DNA from: a virus
Reading direction: 5' to 3' (one strand)
Virus record (IMG/VR): IMGVR_UViG_3300033571_007743
Coordinates: 1-35,481 of that record
DNA length: 35,481 nucleotides
Under the pieces are notes generated by a model. The model saw nothing but the letters and a program-made list of their open reading frames with translations, was not told the origin of the DNA and did not search any database. Of the stretch, positions 3,339-34,248 are shown one piece after another (positions within the stretch are counted from its first letter, which is position 1; every line of letters begins with the position of its first letter). A program made the translations under genes and the position numbers.

Positions 3339-3902
3339 TCTTTAAGGCCCACATATCGTAAAACTGATACGGGGCGAACTTGCCCAAGAGAAGCTCGTCA
3401 GGGTGCTTGCCAAAATCATCACGCCCAACGATGACCCTTGATCTGTACCAAGGGTCGTTTAGTCTTTTTTTGCCGCGTCAAGTTCCTCGTTTTCTGCGAG
3501 TTGGCTTGCGCCGTTGTTGTGCTTTGCCCACTCATCGTTGATGAACCGGAAGAGCAAAGGAGCCTCGGCGTACATCACCATGAACTCAAACTCCGAAGTG
3601 GCAGGTTCAACGATGGTCGCCGCCAGTGCCGCGCAGGACGCCAGAGCGGTGTTGTTCTTGACGATGTAGGGGCGAAACGCTTCGGGGACAAGGTTTGGCT
3701 TACTGACGGTCTTTAGGAACGTCTCAACCTTTGCCGCGATGGACTCTAGAATCAGGTGGTTGTCCACCGTCTTAAAGGTCATCACCGCGTCTTTGCCGAA
3801 GGGGATGTCAAACGTAGACGACTGCGGCCGAGTGATACCGATGATCCTCGCCAGCGTATCGTTGACCGGGAGCGGATTCTTCCCGATCTCCGCCGCATCC
3901 AT
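3313..3902 (-). CDS. Tail assembly chaperone, long form made by -1 frameshifting (GT-type)
   Basis: At the run of seven A on the coding strand (3465-3471), a -1 slip takes the ribosome into an open frame of 50 codons that ends at TGA 3313-3315. The fusion would be 196 aa: 146 residues of the short form plus 50 residues starting RLNDPWYRSR and containing LGKFAPYQFYDMWALK. This composition is protein-like and matches the short T-type extensions of siphovirus chaperones. A 10-bp hairpin follows 8 bases downstream. The long and short products are known in lambda (gpG/gpGT) to load the tape measure and recruit tail tube subunits. The order tube, chaperones, tape measure supports the same role. Confidence 0.85.
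3433..3471 (-). promoter_or_regulatory. Programmed -1 ribosomal frameshift signal
   Basis: On the coding strand the zero-frame codons GCA AAA AAA GAC TAA contain the slippery heptamer A-AAA-AAA (3465-3471). After an 8-base spacer comes a perfect 10-bp stem with an ACAG tetraloop, GACCCTTGGT paired with ATCAAGGGTC (3433-3456, one G-T pair). Slippery site, spacer length and hairpin fit the known pattern for tail-chaperone frameshifting. Confidence 0.85.
3459..3902 (-). CDS. Tail assembly chaperone, short form (G-type)
   Basis: A 147-aa acidic, helical protein ending ELDAAKKD. I chose the ATG at 3902 (MDAAEIGKNP) because it has a GAGG ribosome site 7 bases upstream and shares one base with the stop of the preceding gene (TGATG); an upstream TTG at 3917 is less likely. 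Length, acidity and the slippery A7 run at the very end of the frame mark it as the gpG-like partner of the frameshifted long form. It would bind the tape measure protein before tail tube polymerisation and is expected to be absent from the finished virion. Confidence 0.85.
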   Translation of the reverse strand: MDAAEIGKNPLPVNDTLARIIGITRPQSSTFDIPFGKDAVMTFKTVDNHLILESIAAKVETFLKTVSKPNLVPEAFRPYIVKNNTALASCAALAATIVEPATSEFEFMVMYAEAPLLFRFINDEWAKHNNGASQLAENEELDAAKKD

Positions 3903-7481: not shown

Positions 7482-8768
7482 TTAGCTGATCTTGAGTCGG
7501 CTGAAAGCGTTCTCATCAACTGGCGCGCCGTCAACGTATCCAGTCATTGCAAAGCCCTGTTGATCAGAGGTTGCGTAGAGCTGGTCAAGGACGGTGATGT
7601 CAAGCTGTCGAGCGTCTGCGATTGCGTAGCCCTGCTTGAGATCGTGGAGCGAGAGAACCATCGTTCCGGTGGTGATGTTGCCCGTTGCGCCTGGGTCTGC
7701 CATGAACTCGGAGACGTCGTATGCAAATCCCGCGAGGGTTGCGCCGGCGCCTACAGTGAGGCCGTTGACGTTCTGGGTTCCGACTGGTTGCCACAGGTAC
7801 TCGTTGCTACCTGCCTTGAGCTTGCGGACTCGCATCTCGGTGTTGCGGTGCATCGACCATCGAGCATTGGCGCGGAACTGGCTCTTGAGGAGTCCAACAA
7901 CCGTCCAGATGTCGTCAGCGGAGATGACGTTAGCAGTTCCCGAGCTTGAGGTTCGGTTGGTGCTTACACCGTCGTTTGACTCAAAGAGGAATCCGAGAGG
8001 GCGACCCACTCCGGTTCCGGTCAAGAACGCCTTCTCCTGAGTTCGAGCAAAGACGTAAGCCGCCTTGTTCAAAAGCAAGTCTTGGGCATAAGCTGCATTC
8101 TGGATGAGCTTCTTGCTAATCTTGATGGTCTTGGAGAGTCGTCGTGGCTGGAGTTCCTTCTTACCGAACGGAGATTCGGTCGAAGCCGATTGGTCTGCGT
8201 TCTCGGTAACCCAGTCGAAGTCGTCAAGGTCTCCGAAGGTCACAACACCGAGCGAGTCAGCGTTGGTAACCGGGATGACGTTGGCGTACCGGCGGACGAA
8301 GGTCTGGTCGTTGACGAGCGAGATGACGAAGTTAGCGAGAACTTCCTGAACCACCGCATAGCCGCCCTTGATTGGGTTAGCAACTGCGAAGTTGTTAAGC
8401 TCCTGCTGGAACTTGTTGTCACTCATTCGGTTGCCGCCAACGAAGGAGTCCTTCATTGCCGAGCCGAGTGCGTTAAAGACCATCTTCGCGTCCACGGCGG
8501 TTTCGCCCTTTTCGCTGGATCGTCGCTCGATTTCGCCGACTGCCTTCTGCGATGCCGCATCAAATCGGTTCAGCTTGTCTGCCGCGTCTTGCTTGACCTT
8601 GATCTGCTCGGTCAATGCGTCGTAGTCGTTGAGCATTCGGTCGAACCGCTCGAGTTCCGATCCGTTAAGATCGCCCTCTTTGCCGTCGTACTTTGCCCGG
8701 ATGTCGTTGATTTCCTTACCGATCTTGATTTGCTGATCGGTGAGGTCTTTGAGAATGCCGTTGTACAT
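7482..8768 (-). CDS. Major capsid protein, HK97 fold
   Basis: A 428-aa protein of the HK97 gp5 family. The first ~100 residues are a charged helical coiled-coil (delta/scaffolding-like) region (LTDQQIKIGKEINDIRAKYDG...). The mature capsid domain follows, with the recognisable segments VVQEVLANFVISLVNDQTFVRR, FVSS-like 'DWVTENADQSASTESPFGKKELQPRR', the helix ISKKLIQNAAYAQDLLLNKAA and the insert 'EKAFLTGTGVGRPLGFL'. The C-terminal half has the family strands (TMVLSLHDLKQGYAIADA). The prohead protease encoded just upstream would remove the delta region. Length is normal. Confidence 0.95.
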   Translation of the reverse strand: MYNGILKDLTDQQIKIGKEINDIRAKYDGKEGDLNGSELERFDRMLNDYDALTEQIKVKQDAADKLNRFDAASQKAVGEIERRSSEKGETAVDAKMVFNALGSAMKDSFVGGNRMSDNKFQQELNNFAVANPIKGGYAVVQEVLANFVISLVNDQTFVRRYANVIPVTNADSLGVVTFGDLDDFDWVTENADQSASTESPFGKKELQPRRLSKTIKISKKLIQNAAYAQDLLLNKAAYVFARTQEKAFLTGTGVGRPLGFLFESNDGVSTNRTSSSGTANVISADDIWTVVGLLKSQFRANARWSMHRNTEMRVRKLKAGSNEYLWQPVGTQNVNGLTVGAGATLAGFAYDVSEFMADPGATGNITTGTMVLSLHDLKQGYAIADARQLDITVLDQLYATSDQQGFAMTGYVDGAPVDENAFSRLKIS

Positions 8769-13464: not shown

Positions 13465-13668
13465 TTAAACGTCCTCTTCTACTCGCTCGATACCGATGCC
13501 AGTAACAGCGGACGCGATTGGCATAGCCGAGAGAACTTCTTCAACTGCTCCCTGGGTCATTCGCTTGACAACAGTTCGCCAGCGGACGTTGACCTTAAAT
13601 AGAGTCCGAATCGTCGCCGGGATCCATGTCGCATCCTCCAAGCTCAAAATGAACCGATATCGTTTCAT
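13465..13668 (-). CDS. Hypothetical protein (67 aa)
   Basis: A small protein starting MKRYRFILSL at the ATG 13668, which shares one base with the upstream stop (TGATG); a longer start is not needed. It reads as alternating strands and helices (ILSLEDATWIPATIRTLFKV, 'VRWRTVVKRMTQGAVEEVLS') and ends with an acidic ERVEEDV. No family is recognised. It lies in the lysis-to-packaging stretch of the late operon, and no function can be given. Confidence 0.65.
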   Translation of the reverse strand: MKRYRFILSLEDATWIPATIRTLFKVNVRWRTVVKRMTQGAVEEVLSAMPIASAVTGIGIERVEEDV

Positions 13669-13850
13669 CAGGCCGACACTCCCAGCGCACCACACGCGCC
13701 CGTGACTGCTCCCTTAATCCAACGCTTGACTGCGATCTTCCAGTCGAAACCAAATCCCACGGACTCATTCCACTTCTGGAGGTCGAACATGACGGCACCG
13801 AGAAAACCGAGAGCAGCCCCTTTGAGAGCTTTTGTGAGTAGTTCATTCAT
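13668..13850 (-). CDS. Small holin-like membrane protein
   Basis: A 60-aa protein with two hydrophobic Gly/Ala segments, around residues 8-22 (LKGAALGFLGAVMF) and 45-58 (IKGAVTGACGALGVSA), separated by a Trp/Lys-rich linker (FDWKIAVKRWIKG). Small two-segment Ala/Gly-rich proteins near the endolysin are often holins or holin antagonists; the 'DWxxAxxxxxxGAxxGAxxAL' pattern recalls r1t-type holins. That is inference. A second candidate holin (14730-14984) lies closer to the endolysin. It is preceded by an AGGAGAACAACA ribosome region. Confidence 0.6.
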   Translation of the reverse strand: MNELLTKALKGAALGFLGAVMFDLQKWNESVGFGFDWKIAVKRWIKGAVTGACGALGVSA

Positions 13851-13860
13851 TGTTGTTCTC

Positions 13861-14727
13861 CTAAAGTAGAACCCGAGCCTGGGTAATCAATTCGTTTGCG
13901 GTTCGCATCTGGCTCAGTTCGATGATCGCGCCGCCCTTAGACTGTGGCGAGACGTTCCATCCGACCGCGTAGCTTGGCTTTGTGTCCTTCTCAAGACCGT
14001 AGGTGTCAAGGTACGAGCCAGTCATAATGCAATGCACGTCCCGCTCCTTACTGGTCATCGTGCGCCGATCAAGAGTCATCTTCCGGTTGACGACTGCAAA
14101 GCGGTTATGCTTGTGACCGATCCAAAGACCGTCAACGTCGCCCTGCCACGCCATCATGCGCTCGAAGTCGATGATGCCCTTGGTGGCCGGAGCCGCGCCG
14201 CCTGCCCCGTGGTGCCGATAAATTGTAAAAGCGGTTTTCTTAGTGCCTGTGCCTTGCAGTCCAACATTCCAGTAACCGCACCATCCGCCGTACTTGATGC
14301 TATGCCCTGTGCGCTCTCTCAGAATTGCGATGAGCTGCGGAACGAGCTGGACGTGGTGGTGTTTGCCAACGTGCCCTTCGTGGTTTCCGATGCCGATAAA
14401 CTCAATGAGGTGAGCGTATGGCTCGAGGAACCTTGCCGCGAGTTCAATCGCGCCATCCAGCGGAAGCCAACCGCCCTCGGTACACATCCGCATCAGTTCA
14501 GGGTCAACCGCTCTGAGGTCGAACCGCTTAACGTCGCTTGGGAGGATCGCGTCAAATACGTCCCCGTTGATACCGATACGGCAACCTAATGCCGCCATCC
14601 GGTCAAAGTCTTTCTTAAGAGCTTTTTTGTCTAAGCTACTCGCTCCGAAGTGACAATCCGAAACCAGTCCGAGCCGGACGACTTCGCTGATGGAAGATAA
14701 CTTGAACTCGGTTCGGATGTTGTACAT
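13861..14727 (-). CDS. Calcineurin-like metallophosphoesterase
   Basis: A 288-aa protein with the complete di-metal phosphoesterase signature: Asp24 and His26 (SDCHFG), Asp56 (NGDVFD), Asn115-His116 (GNHEGH), His172/His173 (YRHHGAGG) and the GH-x-H pair His205/His207 (GHKHNR). Substrates in this superfamily include nucleic acids, cyclic nucleotides and phosphoproteins, and the sequence does not show which. Related proteins occur in phages as isolated late or accessory genes. It lies between the lysis pair and the packaging genes and is expressed late by position. It could process DNA ends or host signalling nucleotides. Confidence 0.85.
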   Translation of the reverse strand: MYNIRTEFKLSSISEVVRLGLVSDCHFGASSLDKKALKKDFDRMAALGCRIGINGDVFDAILPSDVKRFDLRAVDPELMRMCTEGGWLPLDGAIELAARFLEPYAHLIEFIGIGNHEGHVGKHHHVQLVPQLIAILRERTGHSIKYGGWCGYWNVGLQGTGTKKTAFTIYRHHGAGGAAPATKGIIDFERMMAWQGDVDGLWIGHKHNRFAVVNRKMTLDRRTMTSKERDVHCIMTGSYLDTYGLEKDTKPSYAVGWNVSPQSKGGAIIELSQMRTANELITQARVLL

Positions 14728-21795: not shown

Positions 21796-22086
21796 CTATG
21801 CGGTCAGGGAAGCGGGTTCTGCTATACTTTCAGTAGTTACGGAAAGTACGCAGTTGACTGCCTCGGTGGTTGACGATGAGAGGCCCTGGTTGCAGCCGGG
21901 GCTTTCTTGTATTTGGAGTGAGCTTTGTTTCCGCTTGCGAAGGTAGTAGGTGTCTCTTGAAAGACCGACCATTTGACAGGCGGCAAGCACGTCCATATAA
22001 GGGTTTGCTGCTCGCATCCCATCCACTTGATTCACAAGCTCAGTGATCCTGTCACTCTTGCGGGGTTTTGCTGATTGTCCGCTCAT
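21796..22086 (-). CDS. Small HTH protein, possible Cro-like or early regulator
   Basis: A 96-aa protein transcribed divergently from the repressor. The part around residues 26-50 (NPYMDVLAACQMVGLSRDTY, then YLRKRK) looks like a helix-turn-helix of the kind found in Myb/transposase N-terminal domains. The rest is Ser/Thr-rich. Position opposite a CI-like repressor and over a shared operator suggests a Cro, early activator or anti-repressor role. The start is ATG 22086; an extended -10 lies only about 10 bases upstream, so the mRNA is probably leaderless or nearly so. Confidence 0.7.
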   Translation of the reverse strand: MSGQSAKPRKSDRITELVNQVDGMRAANPYMDVLAACQMVGLSRDTYYLRKRKQSSLQIQESPGCNQGLSSSTTEAVNCVLSVTTESIAEPASLTA

Positions 22087-22109: not shown

Positions 22110-22125
22110 TAAACAGACGTGTTTA
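22110..22125. promoter_or_regulatory. Operator OL (TAAACA-N4-TGTTTA)
   Basis: A perfect inverted repeat with 6-bp arms and a 4-base centre (GACG), in the divergent region between HTH protein and repressor. Its arms are identical to those of the operator at 22872-22887. A TATAAA -10-like hexamer (22108-22113) for the repressor overlaps it, so autoregulation is likely. A half-site TAAACA is at 22090-22095. Confidence 0.75.
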
Positions 22126-28196: not shown

Positions 28197-31100
28197 TTAG
28201 GAGAATGTAAAGCCGTCGGCAGCAGTCTTGAATTGCCTTGCGCCGCCGATCTGGTAGGTGATGCCGATGACCTGCTTTTGGTCTGAGTTGACCGAGACAC
28301 GGATGTTAAATGCTTGCTGATCTAACCCTGTAAGGTTGGTTGCTGTCTCACTCACAACCGTATTGGCTTGAGCATCCAGCACCCGCCCGTAGAGCGTCCC
28401 GCCCGAGTCAAGCCTGTACGCATACAGGAGATTGTTTGGAGTCCATTCAATGGCAGAGAAGTCGCCGGAGCCGAGTGTCATAACGCTGGTGAGGGTTCCG
28501 CCCTCGTCTGTGGTCTTGTAGAGCGTAATCGCGCCACCGTCTACGATGGCAATAGACAACGCGCTTGATCCGTTGTGATACGAAATATCAAAGTAATCTG
28601 CCGGGACTCCCGTGTCAACATCCCCCCAAGTGTAGGGGCCGTTCGTGCTGGAGTGCGACAGCCAAGCATTGCCTGCCTTTACATATCCTGTGCAATGCCG
28701 AAGGTTATTGAGGACATCGTATGTGAGAGGCGCACCGTCGCTGACCGTCTCCATCCCGATAAACGCCTGACCGCGCCAGGGACGCATCTCAAACCAGTCC
28801 ACGCCCGACCAATGGAACATCCAGTCCTGCGCTTCGTTGTTGGTCACCGCTTCCGAGAACTCGCAGACCGTCCAGCCCTCCGGCGCAGTCGCCAGCGTTA
28901 GGTGGTCGCTTCCGCCGTTGTTAAGCTCGGGAGGAGTGTTGCCGGGAACAATGTGGGGATGCTTGTTGCAAATGTCGCTAAACGCCGTCTGCTCGTAGTC
29001 TCCATCCGCAAGCCAGCCGTCTCCCGTCTCGCGCAACGCTTCCGGCATATGCGCCAGTGGTGGCAATGACCGATAGGAGTTCAGATACCAGAGCCTCGGC
29101 CCGATCTCCGAGCGAACCACGCCAGAGAGGGAGTCGACCGTTATCGCGCCTTCCTCGTCCTTGTAACGCCAAAGGTGCTTGGTTACTCCGGCTGGGAACT
29201 CTTCACCGCTGACAAACTCCGCAGCCATCCGCGTTGCCAGCCCATCGAGCGCATCCAGTCCCCGAAGGAAGTTGTTCTCCCAGCACCAGAGGTCGCCAAT
29301 GGTTACCTTGGTAAAGACCGAGGATGTCGGCGTAGGCACGTTGATCGGAGCGTCTGCCATCCAGTCGTAGTAGTTCAGAACGCCATAGCGAACCATAGGG
29401 CCGTTCTTAAACAGGATCGTGGAGAAACATCCGTTCTCGTGGAAAACTTGTGCATCTGTCCAAGGCGCCTGATAGAACGTAGGATGGTCAATGCTGACCG
29501 CTCCGGTGTACGCTCCTGCCCGGGTGATCTCGATCCGAATCTTGACCGGCGAGAAACCAGGGAGAAGGTTAAACGAGCTGATCCGCTCTGCATCCGCTAG
29601 AGTTGCCGATGTGATGTCATCCGCGCTGACTCCCGCATCCGGCGTGTAGTCGTCCGTGAGGTAGCTTGCGCCAAAGTCTGACCCTGCCGACGTCGCCCAC
29701 TTCTCAGAGTCTCCAAAGGGAATCCGGTAGATGGTTCCAGAGACAACACCTGCTGTCGGCCCGATCTGCTTCCTTGTCCCGTCGATGCCCTCGGCAAAGA
29801 CCTTGACCGCGCTGATATTGGTATCAGTCCAGCTAATTTCGATCCGATCCGAGAGCGTTGTGACCATGTACGGATAGACCGTAAACGAGGTCATGTCGAA
29901 CTCGATCGCGTCCCCGGTGGTCAGGGTAACCGATGCGCCAACGCTTCCGGTTCCGCTGCCGACTCCATTCTTGAAGGTGAAGCGGGTGGCGGATGTGGAG
30001 TTGGTTGTGAAGTTGGTTGCAAAGGTCTCGTTCTCGATGCCGAACCGACAGATGCCCCACCATGTCGGCATCCCCGAGATAGTTTCGGTCAGTGATTGAA
30101 TCCTGTTTTGCGCGATTGGCTCGGTGGTCACGTTGACTCTTCGCTTAGTGTCCTCTGCCGTCGGGAGTGCCGGGTTTGTGATGTGTTGCTGGCGGATGGC
30201 GTACCAGTAGGCGATGTCAGAGTCCGACCCTAGCAAATCCCAGCGTGAACCAGTAGATGCCGTATCCGGTGGGAACCAAAGCGAGTAGCTCCAATGCGGA
30301 TTTGCCCAGCTATTCCAAAGCCGAACGAGTGGTTCGGGATGCCCAAGCAATCCCGTACACATCGTGATGTTGTCCAGCATTGCGTCAATGATTGACGGGA
30401 AATACTGGATCTTCTTATTGGTGTAAGTTGGCGATCCCGACGTTGTGCGCCCCGTAGCGTTGGAGTAGTACGGCGCGTAAGTTGGGTAGCCGAATGGGTC
30501 TTCAATAATTTGAACAATGTCCCGAACGTCTTGGAGCATATAGGACAGTCGCGGATAAAGCTCATCCGTCTGATCCACCGAGGTTCCGCCTGGAGGATCG
30601 TCAATCCCAACCGGGAACGTACAAGACTCCTCTGCGTACCGCTCCGCCTTCGGAAAACCGAACCGGGTTACCAGTGCCTCATAGGATGCCGGGAAGCGGA
30701 CGAGAGACTTTGAGAGGTCGGGCCACGCTCCAACCCACGACCAGGACGCCGCCGGGAACTTACCCTGCGCGACCATGCTCCAAGTGTTGTCACCGCTCGG
30801 CAGTACGTCCGGCGCAGACGCAGGGCAGGAAAGCCCCAAAGAGCCAACTGTGTTGACGTTTACCGGGAACGTCTCGTAACTTGATCCAATCTTGTAGCGG
30901 AACCCGCCGGTGTTGGTTCCGTTCCAGCCGTAGATGGTATTCGCCACCCCGACAATGGGAGCAATGCCAAAGAGCGGAATAGAAGACGGAATCGCCACCA
31001 TCCCGCCGTTGACCGCGCCACTTGCCAAGGTCGCTACACTTGAGCCGTTGACCGAGATGTCTACCGATGACCAAAGCACCCGCCAGGTTCCATCTGTGAC

Positions 31101-31397
31101 GAAAATCTGGAAGTCGTTCAGCGTTGCGATCATCTCGCAGGCAGACGTGCCTGAGATGGTATCTGTCCAGGTCAAAGCCCCACAAGTAAACGTCAGATAG
31201 GTCTCGTCAATGAGCAGAGAATCCGCCCTTCGTAGCTCGACCTCTACAGAGCATCCCGCCGACATTAGAGCATAGTCGGGAGTGTAGTAGAAGCGGGTGT
31301 AGGCAGGGAAGGAAGCGTCCGCCGGCGAGACGTAGGTAGCGGACGCCGAACATTTTACTTGCAGCTCATCCGCCGAGAAGACTAATCCAGATAGCAT
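28197..31397 (-). CDS. Large tail fibre/tip protein
   Basis: A 1066-aa protein, the largest in the genome, Trp/Tyr/Ser-rich and without membrane segments. The last ~200 residues have repeated 'S-x-DGG/x-x-W' blades (AWLSHSSTNGPYTWGDVDTG, ITLYKTTDEGGTL), like Asp-box/BNR propellers that bind sugars. The central part has FRF-like segments and beta strands of a jelly-roll type (YFPSIIDAMLDNITM; LVRLWNSWANPHWSYS). It is probably the receptor-binding fibre or tip. The ATG at 31397 has only a weak ribosome site (TAGG). It is followed by a terminator at 28146-28172. Confidence 0.75.
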   Translation of the reverse strand: MLSGLVFSADELQVKCSASATYVSPADASFPAYTRFYYTPDYALMSAGCSVEVELRRADSLLIDETYLTFTCGALTWTDTISGTSACEMIATLNDFQIFVTDGTWRVLWSSVDISVNGSSVATLASGAVNGGMVAIPSSIPLFGIAPIVGVANTIYGWNGTNTGGFRYKIGSSYETFPVNVNTVGSLGLSCPASAPDVLPSGDNTWSMVAQGKFPAASWSWVGAWPDLSKSLVRFPASYEALVTRFGFPKAERYAEESCTFPVGIDDPPGGTSVDQTDELYPRLSYMLQDVRDIVQIIEDPFGYPTYAPYYSNATGRTTSGSPTYTNKKIQYFPSIIDAMLDNITMCTGLLGHPEPLVRLWNSWANPHWSYSLWFPPDTASTGSRWDLLGSDSDIAYWYAIRQQHITNPALPTAEDTKRRVNVTTEPIAQNRIQSLTETISGMPTWWGICRFGIENETFATNFTTNSTSATRFTFKNGVGSGTGSVGASVTLTTGDAIEFDMTSFTVYPYMVTTLSDRIEISWTDTNISAVKVFAEGIDGTRKQIGPTAGVVSGTIYRIPFGDSEKWATSAGSDFGASYLTDDYTPDAGVSADDITSATLADAERISSFNLLPGFSPVKIRIEITRAGAYTGAVSIDHPTFYQAPWTDAQVFHENGCFSTILFKNGPMVRYGVLNYYDWMADAPINVPTPTSSVFTKVTIGDLWCWENNFLRGLDALDGLATRMAAEFVSGEEFPAGVTKHLWRYKDEEGAITVDSLSGVVRSEIGPRLWYLNSYRSLPPLAHMPEALRETGDGWLADGDYEQTAFSDICNKHPHIVPGNTPPELNNGGSDHLTLATAPEGWTVCEFSEAVTNNEAQDWMFHWSGVDWFEMRPWRGQAFIGMETVSDGAPLTYDVLNNLRHCTGYVKAGNAWLSHSSTNGPYTWGDVDTGVPADYFDISYHNGSSALSIAIVDGGAITLYKTTDEGGTLTSVMTLGSGDFSAIEWTPNNLLYAYRLDSGGTLYGRVLDAQANTVVSETATNLTGLDQQAFNIRVSVNSDQKQVIGITYQIGGARQFKTAADGFTFS

Positions 31398-31443
31398 AAA
31401 TTAAACCTACTGAAATCTTTTTTGAAAATGTTTTCCAAATCTA

Positions 31444-31472
31444 TTGACAATCGTTTAGAAATTGTATACAAT
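31444..31472 (+). promoter_or_regulatory. Near-consensus sigma70 promoter of the moron cassette
   Basis: TTGACA (31444-31449), a 17-base spacer and TACAAT (31467-31472) on the plus strand, opposite to the surrounding late genes. This is the best housekeeping promoter in the window and would work in a lysogen without phage factors. Predicted mRNA starts about 33 bases before ATG 31512. Confidence 0.88.
31461..31472. promoter_or_regulatory. Palindromic operator over the -10 box
   Basis: ATTGTATACAAT is a perfect 12-base palindrome that covers the -10 hexamer. A DNA-binding protein here would switch the promoter off. The cassette's own RHH- or wHTH-like product is the obvious candidate (autoregulation). 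Confidence 0.6.
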
Positions 31473-31511
31473 ATCTACATCAGCAAGAAACAAGCTGACA
31501 GGACTGCTCAA

Positions 31512-31763
31512 ATGAACAACACTCAAGAACTCATCATCATCAACTTCGCCGCACACATGAACGGAACAAACAGCGCGGGCAACCCATCGGCTCCATTTGA
31601 AATCTATAAAGCGATCAAGGAAGTTGACGACTCAATCACTCAGCAAGAAACCAAAGAGGCACTTGATGCGCTTGTGTCATCTGGTCACCTATCGGTCAGC
31701 AATGGCAATTACCAACTCACCGAGCTTGGCGAAGATGCCAAAGAGGAGTTGGAGTCCAACTGA
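31512..31763 (+). CDS. Moron protein 1: small winged-helix-like acidic protein
   Basis: An 83-aa protein, start ATG 31512 (MNNTQELIIINFAAHMNGTN), just behind the promoter; ribosome site weak. It reads as helices followed by a wing: PFEIYKAIKEVDDSITQQET, EALDALVSSGHLSV, then NYQLTELGEDAKEEL. 'Y-x-LT-x-x-G' is the hallmark of winged-helix wings. The net charge is negative, unlike most DNA binders, which would suit a protein-protein inhibitor or nucleic-acid mimic. It is transcribed against the flanking late genes and coupled to the next gene (TGATG). No family is recognised. An anti-defence or host-modulating role is inferred only from gene layout. Confidence 0.8.
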   Translation: MNNTQELIIINFAAHMNGTNSAGNPSAPFEIYKAIKEVDDSITQQETKEALDALVSSGHLSVSNGNYQLTELGEDAKEELESN

Positions 31764-31906
31764 TGCCACGCGGAGGAAAACGAGAAGGAGCTGGAAAAAA
31801 ACAAACCCTACCTGACGGAACCAAACCTCGAACTATACGCCTGACCGACACCGAATACGAGAAGGTCAAGAGCCTGATCGAAGAACTCCGAAAGCTCTCC
31901 AATTGA
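31763..31906 (+). CDS. Moron protein 2: ribbon-helix-helix-like small regulator
   Basis: A 47-aa, very basic protein (ATG 31763) with GGKREGAGKKQ, then KPRTIRLTDTEYEKVKSLIE. This 'beta strand T-I-R-L-T-D plus helix' is typical for ribbon-helix-helix regulators (Arc/CopG-like), and the GGKREGAG tail is common in small phage DNA-binding proteins. The second helix is short (to ELRKLSN), so dimerisation is needed. It overlaps the previous stop by TGATG. It may bind the palindrome in its own promoter, as Aca or antitoxin regulators do; this is inferred. Confidence 0.8.
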   Translation: MPRGGKREGAGKKQTLPDGTKPRTIRLTDTEYEKVKSLIEELRKLSN

Positions 31907-31919
31907 GGGCTTTTTCTTT
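31891..31919 (+). terminator. Intrinsic terminator of the moron cassette
   Basis: AAAGCTCTC pairs with GAGGGCTTT (9 bp, one G-T) around CAATT and is followed by TTCTTT on the plus strand. It overlaps the stop of moron 2. The minus strand lacks a T-run here, so late transcripts can pass leftward. Confidence 0.75.
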
Positions 31920-34248
31920 AAGGCACCTCAACCGACGACGCGATCAGACTGTTCCCAAACAGGTTCCCGAAGTCTCTGCGAACCGAGCCACCAGCGAGAA
32001 ACGCTTCGTAATTGTTGCGAATCTCGGGAACGCTGGAACCACCCAAACCAAACGATGCACCGCCGACGTAGTTGGCAGACCGGAATACAAGAGCATCCCG
32101 CTCGGCAATGAACTCAGCAGTAAACGCCGTGATCGTCACCGTTCCTTGTCCGTCGTAGTCAATTTGGTCACCGCGCCACAGTGGTACGTCGTCCGCTGGG
32201 TCAATGAGAAACATAGAGTCCGCCGATGTGACATAGTTCCGGGCGAAGATTTTAGGCGCTGCCGTCTCGAGCAGTTTCTCACAGGCCGCCGCCGTCTGAA
32301 GTCTTGGAGACTGGAAGCCGACAACCCGAGGCTCACCGCACCAGTTGGTTGGGCGTGAGCTTGGAGCCGTCGCCGGGTTCTTGCTTGCCGCATCTTCCTG
32401 CCAGCGCACGATTGGCTCCTGCTTCCTTGGGTCAAGACCCATAACCCGAACCTCGTTGCCAGCGATTGGTAGCGGTTCCCGGTGGTAGTTGTCGTAGCAT
32501 CTGTAGGGAGCGTCAGTGCTTGAGACACCGCCAGCAACCGCATCTGCCGGAGTCCGGTAGAGCGTGATTGTCCTTGGCGTGTAGGTGTCTGGATCGTTGA
32601 AGAAAGCCTTCGGAGTGGTCGCCGTTGGCTTGATGCCCCACAGGAACCCAAAAGCGATCTCGGTGACCAGGCTCGATAGCTCAGAGAATGGCGTCGACCC
32701 GCTTTCCATCATGTGCGAGAACTCCGAAGAAGACGCGCCAGGGATGGACGGAATCAGATAGGCGATGTTGTCAATGTCGTAGTCGGTGATGCCAACGGTT
32801 TCAAGGAGTCCGCCCACACAATCTGGGTCAGTCATGTGTGACAGCTTCAAACCGTCCAGCGGGATTCGGTCGCGCAGGATGTAGCTTTGCATAGCCGCCA
32901 TACGGTCTCGAATGATAAGGTCGCCTGTCCTGACTTCGCCGTGCAAGCCGTCTGCAAACTTGACTGGGTTGATGATGCCGTCAATGATGACCAGAGTCCC
33001 GATCTTGACCTTGCAGGGGATGTTCTCATGCTCGAGCAGTCCAGCAACGTCCGTCTGTACGTCCTCCGGGTCTTTGAGGACAACGTGCATCTCGACCCCG
33101 CCAGGATCGTCTGGAACGCTCAGAGACGCCGAGAGAATGGAGCTGCTAATGTCGAACTCTTCCGAGTCGTCCGTGTCCACAAACGTGCCAGTATAGGAGG
33201 TCGATACACCGCGGAGAAATGGCGTGTATCCGTTGCCACTTGCCGCCGTCATTGATACCTTGACCTTGACCTGTGATGTGGTTCCGTCCGGTGTGAACGC
33301 AGATCCGCCAGTGGTCTCGATGGCTACCGCGCTGACCGCTTCGGATGTCGCTGCCCAACTGCCACGATCCGCAAAGACCCGCGCATTGGTTACCGCCGTC
33401 GCAGGTGAGCCGTTGGAGTAGGTGCCAAGCGTCTGCCCGGTCTGGGGAACCCTGCCAAAGGAATAGGTCTTGGAACGAGCATAGCCGGAGGCCTTGAACC
33501 TTAGTGGTGCAATCTCGCAGTCTACGGTGCGGTTGTTGCGAACCCAGAACCAGAACTTCTCGTCCGAGATAATCTCAGGAGACGTTGCCGTCTCAAGGAT
33601 GTCATCGAAGACGTGGACAAAGCCGCCCTGCGTTTGCTTGCAGTAGACCAGCAGTTCCCGCCGGCGCATTGGGATAATGAGGAACTCGACTGGCTCATTG
33701 ACGATAGACCCGCCGAACTCATGGGTTTTGAGGAATACGCCGTCCTTCCAGACCTCGCACGTCCCATTAGAGGCATAGAAGCGAAGCGCAACACCAGCAG
33801 TGGATGAAGACCCGCCGCCAGCGTTGTCCCAGCCACACTCAAAGCCGTATTGGTCATCCGCGTTACCCGTGTTGAACGAGTGGAAGGAAACGTACCATCC
33901 CCGGTTGATGCCGTAGGTCGCAGAGGTCAAGGCAGGAGTGCTACCCATTCCACTGGTCGCCCACAGTCTCACCGTTCCCGCGTTAGTGTTCGCCTTCGTC
34001 TTCCAGAGCGAGGAAGAACCCAGACCGAAGTCCGAGAGGGTAAGCCTTGCATAATCCCCTGCGCTAGTCGTCTGCCACGTTTGGTCAAGACAGACAGGCA
34101 GGAGCATGGTCGTATCCGTTACCGGATCAGTCCAGACGCTCGATGAGGTAGCCCCATCAAAGTCCTTCCCCGCAACGGTGAGAGTTACCCGCTCTTTGTC
34201 AATCCGGTTTTGCGCCGTGTTGACCAGGATTGTTAGCTTGTCTGCCAT
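31918..34248 (-). CDS. Tail hub/tip protein
   Basis: A 776-aa protein, start ATG 34248 in a TAATG overlap with the propeller gene. The first ~250 residues look like a LamG/concanavalin-like sandwich (SGMGSTPALTSATYGINRGW, GVALRFYASNGTCEVWKDGV). The second half has hub-like segments (LEHENIPCKVKIGTLVIIDG, AAMQSYILRDRIPLDG, 'DVPLWRGDQIDYDGQGTVTI'), as in gp27/Tal-type baseplate hubs. It closes or extends the tail tip downstream of the tape measure. Fold-level assignment only. The gene ends 12 bases before the oppositely oriented moron cassette. Confidence 0.65.
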   Translation of the reverse strand: MADKLTILVNTAQNRIDKERVTLTVAGKDFDGATSSSVWTDPVTDTTMLLPVCLDQTWQTTSAGDYARLTLSDFGLGSSSLWKTKANTNAGTVRLWATSGMGSTPALTSATYGINRGWYVSFHSFNTGNADDQYGFECGWDNAGGGSSSTAGVALRFYASNGTCEVWKDGVFLKTHEFGGSIVNEPVEFLIIPMRRRELLVYCKQTQGGFVHVFDDILETATSPEIISDEKFWFWVRNNRTVDCEIAPLRFKASGYARSKTYSFGRVPQTGQTLGTYSNGSPATAVTNARVFADRGSWAATSEAVSAVAIETTGGSAFTPDGTTSQVKVKVSMTAASGNGYTPFLRGVSTSYTGTFVDTDDSEEFDISSSILSASLSVPDDPGGVEMHVVLKDPEDVQTDVAGLLEHENIPCKVKIGTLVIIDGIINPVKFADGLHGEVRTGDLIIRDRMAAMQSYILRDRIPLDGLKLSHMTDPDCVGGLLETVGITDYDIDNIAYLIPSIPGASSSEFSHMMESGSTPFSELSSLVTEIAFGFLWGIKPTATTPKAFFNDPDTYTPRTITLYRTPADAVAGGVSSTDAPYRCYDNYHREPLPIAGNEVRVMGLDPRKQEPIVRWQEDAASKNPATAPSSRPTNWCGEPRVVGFQSPRLQTAAACEKLLETAAPKIFARNYVTSADSMFLIDPADDVPLWRGDQIDYDGQGTVTITAFTAEFIAERDALVFRSANYVGGASFGLGGSSVPEIRNNYEAFLAGGSVRRDFGNLFGNSLIASSVEVP

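Follow-up and report, generated by a model that had tools for sequence, protein, structure and literature searches.

A two-gene cassette with an exchangeable first gene, probably a mobile moron, among the late genes of a temperate tailed phage

A two-gene cassette lies against the late genes of the window, the whole stretch of 35,481 bases that was analysed. The cassette is probably a mobile moron of the shell-and-cargo kind, with a host-type promoter, an exchangeable first gene, a second gene that would repress its own unit, and a built-in terminator. The exchange of cargo, the shell, the coding character of the genes and the terminator were established from sequence.

The record of the window carries a repeat of 87 bases at its ends and is therefore taken as complete and circular. 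Family matches to a tape measure protein, a major head protein, a head protease, a portal protein, a terminase large subunit, a primase, an S24-type repressor and an integrase identify it as a temperate tailed phage. The late genes are read leftward and run on across the record ends. Two scans of GTDB genomes, one using the tail protein and the other the C-terminal half of the second cassette gene, gave no confirmed host. An inverted repeat, TAAACA-GACG-TGTTTA, was seen at 22110-22125, at the start of the repressor ORF, and is likely the operator of the phage repressor. The GTG at 22119 falls within this repeat, and the repressor gene therefore probably begins further downstream.

The first-pass annotation had described a single rightward unit within the leftward late genes, and this was borne out: the cassette occupies 31421-31919, between the minus-strand genes 28197-31397 and 31918-34248. 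The coupling of ORFs of 83 and 47 codons by TGATG, the near-consensus promoter and the terminator were also as described, and the unit had been called a moron. In its sequence it has both a promoter and a terminator of its own, independent of the surrounding operon, and it is an extra unit between conserved genes, absent from that place in relatives. The features are as follows.

31421 to 31516, plus strand: promoter and leader (the 5' shell), conserved with the cassette of relative G001 by local alignment
31444 to 31472, plus strand: sigma-70 promoter TTGACA-17-TACAAT, 11 of 12 consensus bases
31456 to 31477, no strand: 22-bp imperfect palindrome over the -10, with the perfect core ATTGTATACAAT at 31461-31472; possible operator
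31480 to 31498, plus strand: inverted repeat TCAGC-N9-GCTGA, from sequence, alignment and folding; candidate operator or 5' mRNA hairpin
31512 to 31763, plus strand: first gene (cargo), acidic winged-helix-like 83-aa protein, from ORF, structure model and coding score
31763 to 31906, plus strand: second gene, basic 47-aa protein of pI 10, presumed autorepressor
31890 to 31919, plus strand: intrinsic terminator with a 10-bp stem around the stop codon that ends the second gene, from folding and alignment with the G001 cassette
13851 to 13860, no strand: empty site in the window, between an exonuclease-like gene and a 60-aa gene, occupied by a related cassette in G001

The whole window was searched on both strands for promoter-like sites matching at least 10 of 12 consensus bases. 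Only the cassette promoter and one other site were found, the latter at 21973, where the repressor ORF follows 146 bp downstream. The core ATTGTATACAAT is the sole perfect palindrome of at least 12 bp in the window; a uniform model predicts about nine of that size per 35 kb by our own arithmetic, so it is notable by its position rather than by its existence. The perfect palindrome that had been noticed on the -10 is thus present, but it has no counterpart in the nearest relative, G001, and the alignment led us to reject it as a conserved operator element. In contrast, both arms of the TCAGC-N9-GCTGA repeat and their spacing were kept in G001, while the loop had diverged. This repeat, which the earlier annotation had not mentioned, is by alignment the conserved inverted repeat of the leader, and it starts about seven bases past the -10, at the expected transcript start. 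The promoter and leader contain inverted repeats that are candidate sites for the regulator. When IMG/VR was scanned for the leader motif, 80 stretches were returned; outside the contig of G001, neither the leader repeat nor a downstream GGKR gene was present in any of them, and they were therefore taken as chance matches.

The exchange of cargo was seen in comparison with G001 (IMGVR_UViG_3300033571_006148), a close relative whose tail protein is 84% identical to that of the window. The record of G001 ends inside the tail gene, so the comparison covers its loci other than the tail slot. G001 carries a two-gene unit against its late genes, between the exonuclease-like gene and the 60-aa gene that lies upstream of the terminase small subunit. 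These two flanking genes are only 10 bases apart in the window, and the G001 unit is therefore a clean extra at its site. The second genes of the two cassettes were 62-64% identical. The promoter and leader aligned with a local score of 27.5, in comparison with a mean of 12.9 and a maximum of 25.5 in 3000 shuffles, and none of the other stretches of the G001 loci, 982 in all, matched the window as well. A stem-loop at the end of the second gene was common to both but had diverged, and the G001 terminator had no good T run. The first genes, however, were unrelated, with no BLASTP match. That of G001 (L010 1266-1748, minus strand) encodes a 160-aa protein with the motif HEIAHxxxxxxxxHD (HExxH) and a weak SprT-like match. 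No third copy of this shell was found in IMG/VR, and a scan of IMG/VR for the 3' end of the second gene returned G001 only.

Relatives of the second protein were gathered as small genes beginning GGKR(E/P)GAG, and their neighbours were listed, as the first-pass annotation had proposed. A second set of cassettes showed the same regulator type with unrelated first genes. In L014 and L114, the promoter block was 93% identical up to the start of the cargo and the first 64 nt of the second gene were 100% identical, whereas the first proteins, of 61 aa and 106 aa, were unrelated. L021 had the same shell at a different slot, where head genes flank it, and a third unrelated first gene; its promoter matched the consensus at 12 of 12 bases and was 72% identical to the L014/L114 shell. 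The second genes of the three units were 55-68% identical within the set (55-60% for the L021 protein), and the three first proteins had no DNA-binding matches. All three units lie in late genes, on the strand opposite to their neighbours, and a cassette opposite in strand to both flanking genes was seen in at least five cases. The earlier description of a small variable first gene before a basic second gene of DNA-binding type therefore agrees with the related cassettes, which keep the shell and swap the first gene.

The terminator of the window cassette consists of a 10-bp stem, a 5-nt loop and a T-rich tail (-11.9 kcal/mol), and the stop codon of the second gene sits at its loop. A simple terminator scanner missed it, the likely reason being that base pairing of the stem extends into the T run. 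A terminator at the stop codon was found in 7 of 17 GGKR genes as against 9 of 133 control ORFs, a comparison that is indicative only, as the sample of 17 includes relatives and script-made gene calls.

The tail slot that holds the window cassette was compared in other phages sharing the tail protein. L003 had an opposite-strand HTH-like gene of 71 aa (8343-8558, minus strand), L004 had other small opposite-strand genes (13656-14365), and in Synechococcus phage Sc-Yong805-2 an RHH gene plus a membrane-type gene lay on the opposite strand. In the Synechococcus phage the slot genes were followed by a Bro-N antirepressor gene, and its RHH protein had a weak RelB-like match. The slot of L007 had no opposite-strand gene. 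As judged from these sequences, the tail slot is a site where extra genes collect, a hotspot in tail-fibre regions.

The 83-aa ORF had a coding score of 0.268, like that of the phage's own genes, and none of 1000 shuffles scored as high. Its product is strongly acidic (pI 4.2). The winged-helix-like character suggested for it was supported by a single-sequence model of medium confidence (pLDDT 68), in which three helices and a two-stranded wing are predicted in the order H-H-H-E-E-H. This model matched winged-helix domains with Z up to 9.7. Among solved structures in Foldseek, the T4 MotA activation domain ranked first by E-value, ahead of PadR, LmrR and MarR types. The matches to cullin, Fur, MukF and ORC winged helices were taken to indicate fold and not function. 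Pfam hits to ANAPC2, RQC and HTH_45 were below the cut-off and mirror the winged-helix fold only, and weak PADLOC hits to LmuC, NDT_II-A and MkoB (E about 0.01) were taken as chance. No family was matched above threshold in Pfam, PHROGs, NCBIfam or PADLOC, in line with the earlier remark that the protein belongs to no recognised acr family. Annotated phages and plasmids contained no homologue, nor did a pattern search combined with tblastn recover one from IMG/VR, and a functional reading of the protein rests on the model as a consequence.

The 47-aa protein has a GGKREGAG arm, a strand (TIRLT) and one helix, and its model gave a single helix preceded by an unstructured basic arm. The ORF was weak by codon use, since 44 of 1000 shuffles scored as high. 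However, its differences from the G001 homologue were distributed 10/8/23 over the three codon positions, and because they fall mostly at third positions the ORF is taken as a selected coding sequence. It had been called RHH-like. The strand and the first helix are present, but the protein ends after that helix, whereas an RHH fold has a strand and two helices in an interlocked dimer; the missing second helix leaves its dimer uncertain. The protein had no RHH match in Pfam and no HTH match, although together with longer relatives it aligned to the ribbon-helix-helix pattern, and in the relatives L014, L017, L021, L023 and L114 a second segment resembling a helix is present, compatible with RHH. 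The best solved match of the second-gene profile was the relaxosome protein NikA, which was weak, and the protein itself weakly matched plasmid UrfF. A search of full-text articles for the GGKREGAG motif returned nothing. The second gene encodes a GGKR-arm ribbon-helix protein that travels with the promoter and the terminator and most likely acts as an autorepressor. Two observations lead us to infer autorepression: the promoter and the second gene travel together, and Aca proteins offer a parallel case.

Other GGKR-type sequences were observed in several loci. In L116, a second GGKR-like gene (3609-3782; GGYRPGSGRK...LTDAEYAKLKELLDKLRT) encodes a product close to the 47-aa protein of the window, in a phage that already has one such gene. 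A GGKREGAG arm also opens portal-like and terminase-like proteins or lies close to their start (L024 1400-3571, L026 826-1140 and L118 2417-2752), and the sequences suggest that the arm may be a general nucleic-acid-binding tail. ArdC-type genes stand beside small GGKR genes in L017 (1332-2261), L023 (1391-2218) and L117 (3115-3963). They were assigned by Pfam in L017 and L023 (ArdcN plus MPTase-PolyVal, a metallopeptidase) and by similar sequence in L117, where a C5-methylase-like gene lies directly upstream. In L017 and L023 the GGKR pair follows the ArdC anti-restriction gene on the same strand; as their ArdC genes are alike, the two count as one lead.

In the proposed mechanism, host RNA polymerase would read the cassette promoter on phage entry, in the lysogen, or in both. 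The 47-aa protein would accumulate, bind the promoter or leader through its basic arm and a strand-helix dimer, and shut the unit down, a negative autoregulation like that of Aca proteins. Its terminator and its orientation against the tail genes would insulate the cassette from their transcription. With less certainty, the 83-aa protein may be an accessory, non-structural factor that acts on a regulatory or defence protein of the host or of a rival phage.

Other readings of the cassette were weighed against this mobile moron. It could be a strict anti-CRISPR or anti-defence operon, with the 83-aa protein as an inhibitor of host defence and the 47-aa protein as its Aca, although we consider this rather unlikely. 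The acr-aca layout with its inverted repeats, coupling and cargo exchange agrees with such an operon, as do the zincin-type cargo of G001, the GGKR genes after ArdC in L017 and L023, and the wHTH-type anti-defence proteins reported from archaeal viruses (PMC11065993). However, the first protein matched no known anti-defence family, and the L017 and L023 genes are distant RHH-type relatives in another context. It is unlikely, and a little more so, that both proteins are transcription regulators, an alternative that the first-pass annotation had itself raised, in an accessory module for immunity or late-gene control, in which the winged-helix protein would act on phage or host promoters or on a sigma factor in a MotA-like manner and the 47-aa protein would control the pair. 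The winged-helix model with its MotA, PadR, LmrR and MarR matches speaks for such a module, and the tail slot of relatives holds single DNA-binding genes (HTH-like in L003, RHH in Sc-Yong805-2). Nevertheless, the winged helix is a common fold and the protein is strongly acidic. In G001 a SprT-like metallopeptidase gene takes the place of the first gene, and the corresponding proteins of L014, L114 and L021 lack DNA-binding matches; with the cargo replaced by such proteins, regulation is not what the first genes have in common.

The 47-aa gene might instead encode another DNA-binding factor, for example a relaxosome- or packaging-like one, that is not the repressor of the unit and ends many small operons merely because it brings a good terminator. 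The weak NikA and UrfF matches and the GGKR arms of the portal-like and terminase-like proteins of L024 and L026 point in that direction, but in both sets the promoter and leader travel with the second gene and the cargo does not, and we regard this explanation as improbable. A type II toxin-antitoxin or addiction pair is very improbable. Two small coupled genes with their own promoter, one of them basic and RHH-like, would suit such a pair, and the RelB-like match of the Synechococcus RHH protein is consistent with it. Against it, the basic gene comes second and is retained where its partner is replaced entirely, searches of Pfam, NCBIfam and PADLOC matched no toxin family, and the first protein is acidic and winged-helix-like.

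Beyond the mobile moron, which we prefer, a wider proposal is put forward tentatively and is more doubtful than probable: GGKR-arm ribbon-helix proteins may be widespread, undescribed non-HTH autorepressors that mark mobile phage cassettes, whose cargo, the 83-aa winged-helix protein included, would form a large and unexplored pool of anti-defence or host-control genes. If so, this pool would escape Aca-guided searches, which are limited to HTH regulators, and a GGKR gene with a built-in terminator would be a new bait for such genes by association. The cassettes would also be a clean case of a phage reusing one control shell for varied cargo, and they single out a few small proteins, for each of which the promoter and the regulator are defined.

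The likeness to acr-aca operons noted at first holds in layout and cargo exchange, but membership is not supported. Like acrIF8-aca2 and acrIF1-aca1, the cassette has a small variable first gene and a small regulator gene downstream, its own promoter with inverted repeats, a position among other phage genes, and a regulator common to varied first genes, as in window/G001 and L014/L114/L021. Aca1 and Aca2 bind inverted repeats at the -10/-35 and repress (PMC8434428). All 12 of 12 known Aca families are helix-turn-helix (PMC9765179), whereas the cassette regulator has a GGKR arm and a ribbon-helix and no HTH match, and the first gene matched no known anti-defence family, its anti-defence role being putative; the cassette was therefore not filed as an acr-aca operon. 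With RHH repressors (RHH_1/RHH_3, NikA and CopG/Arc types) the 47-aa protein shares a predicted strand followed by an amphipathic helix, but the window and G001 proteins end after the first helix and add the basic GGKREGAG arm. With phage morons and lysogenic conversion units the cassette shares an autonomous promoter and terminator, a place on the opposite strand between late genes, and precise presence or absence in relatives; it differs from them in that a whole control shell is reused with new cargo and at new positions.
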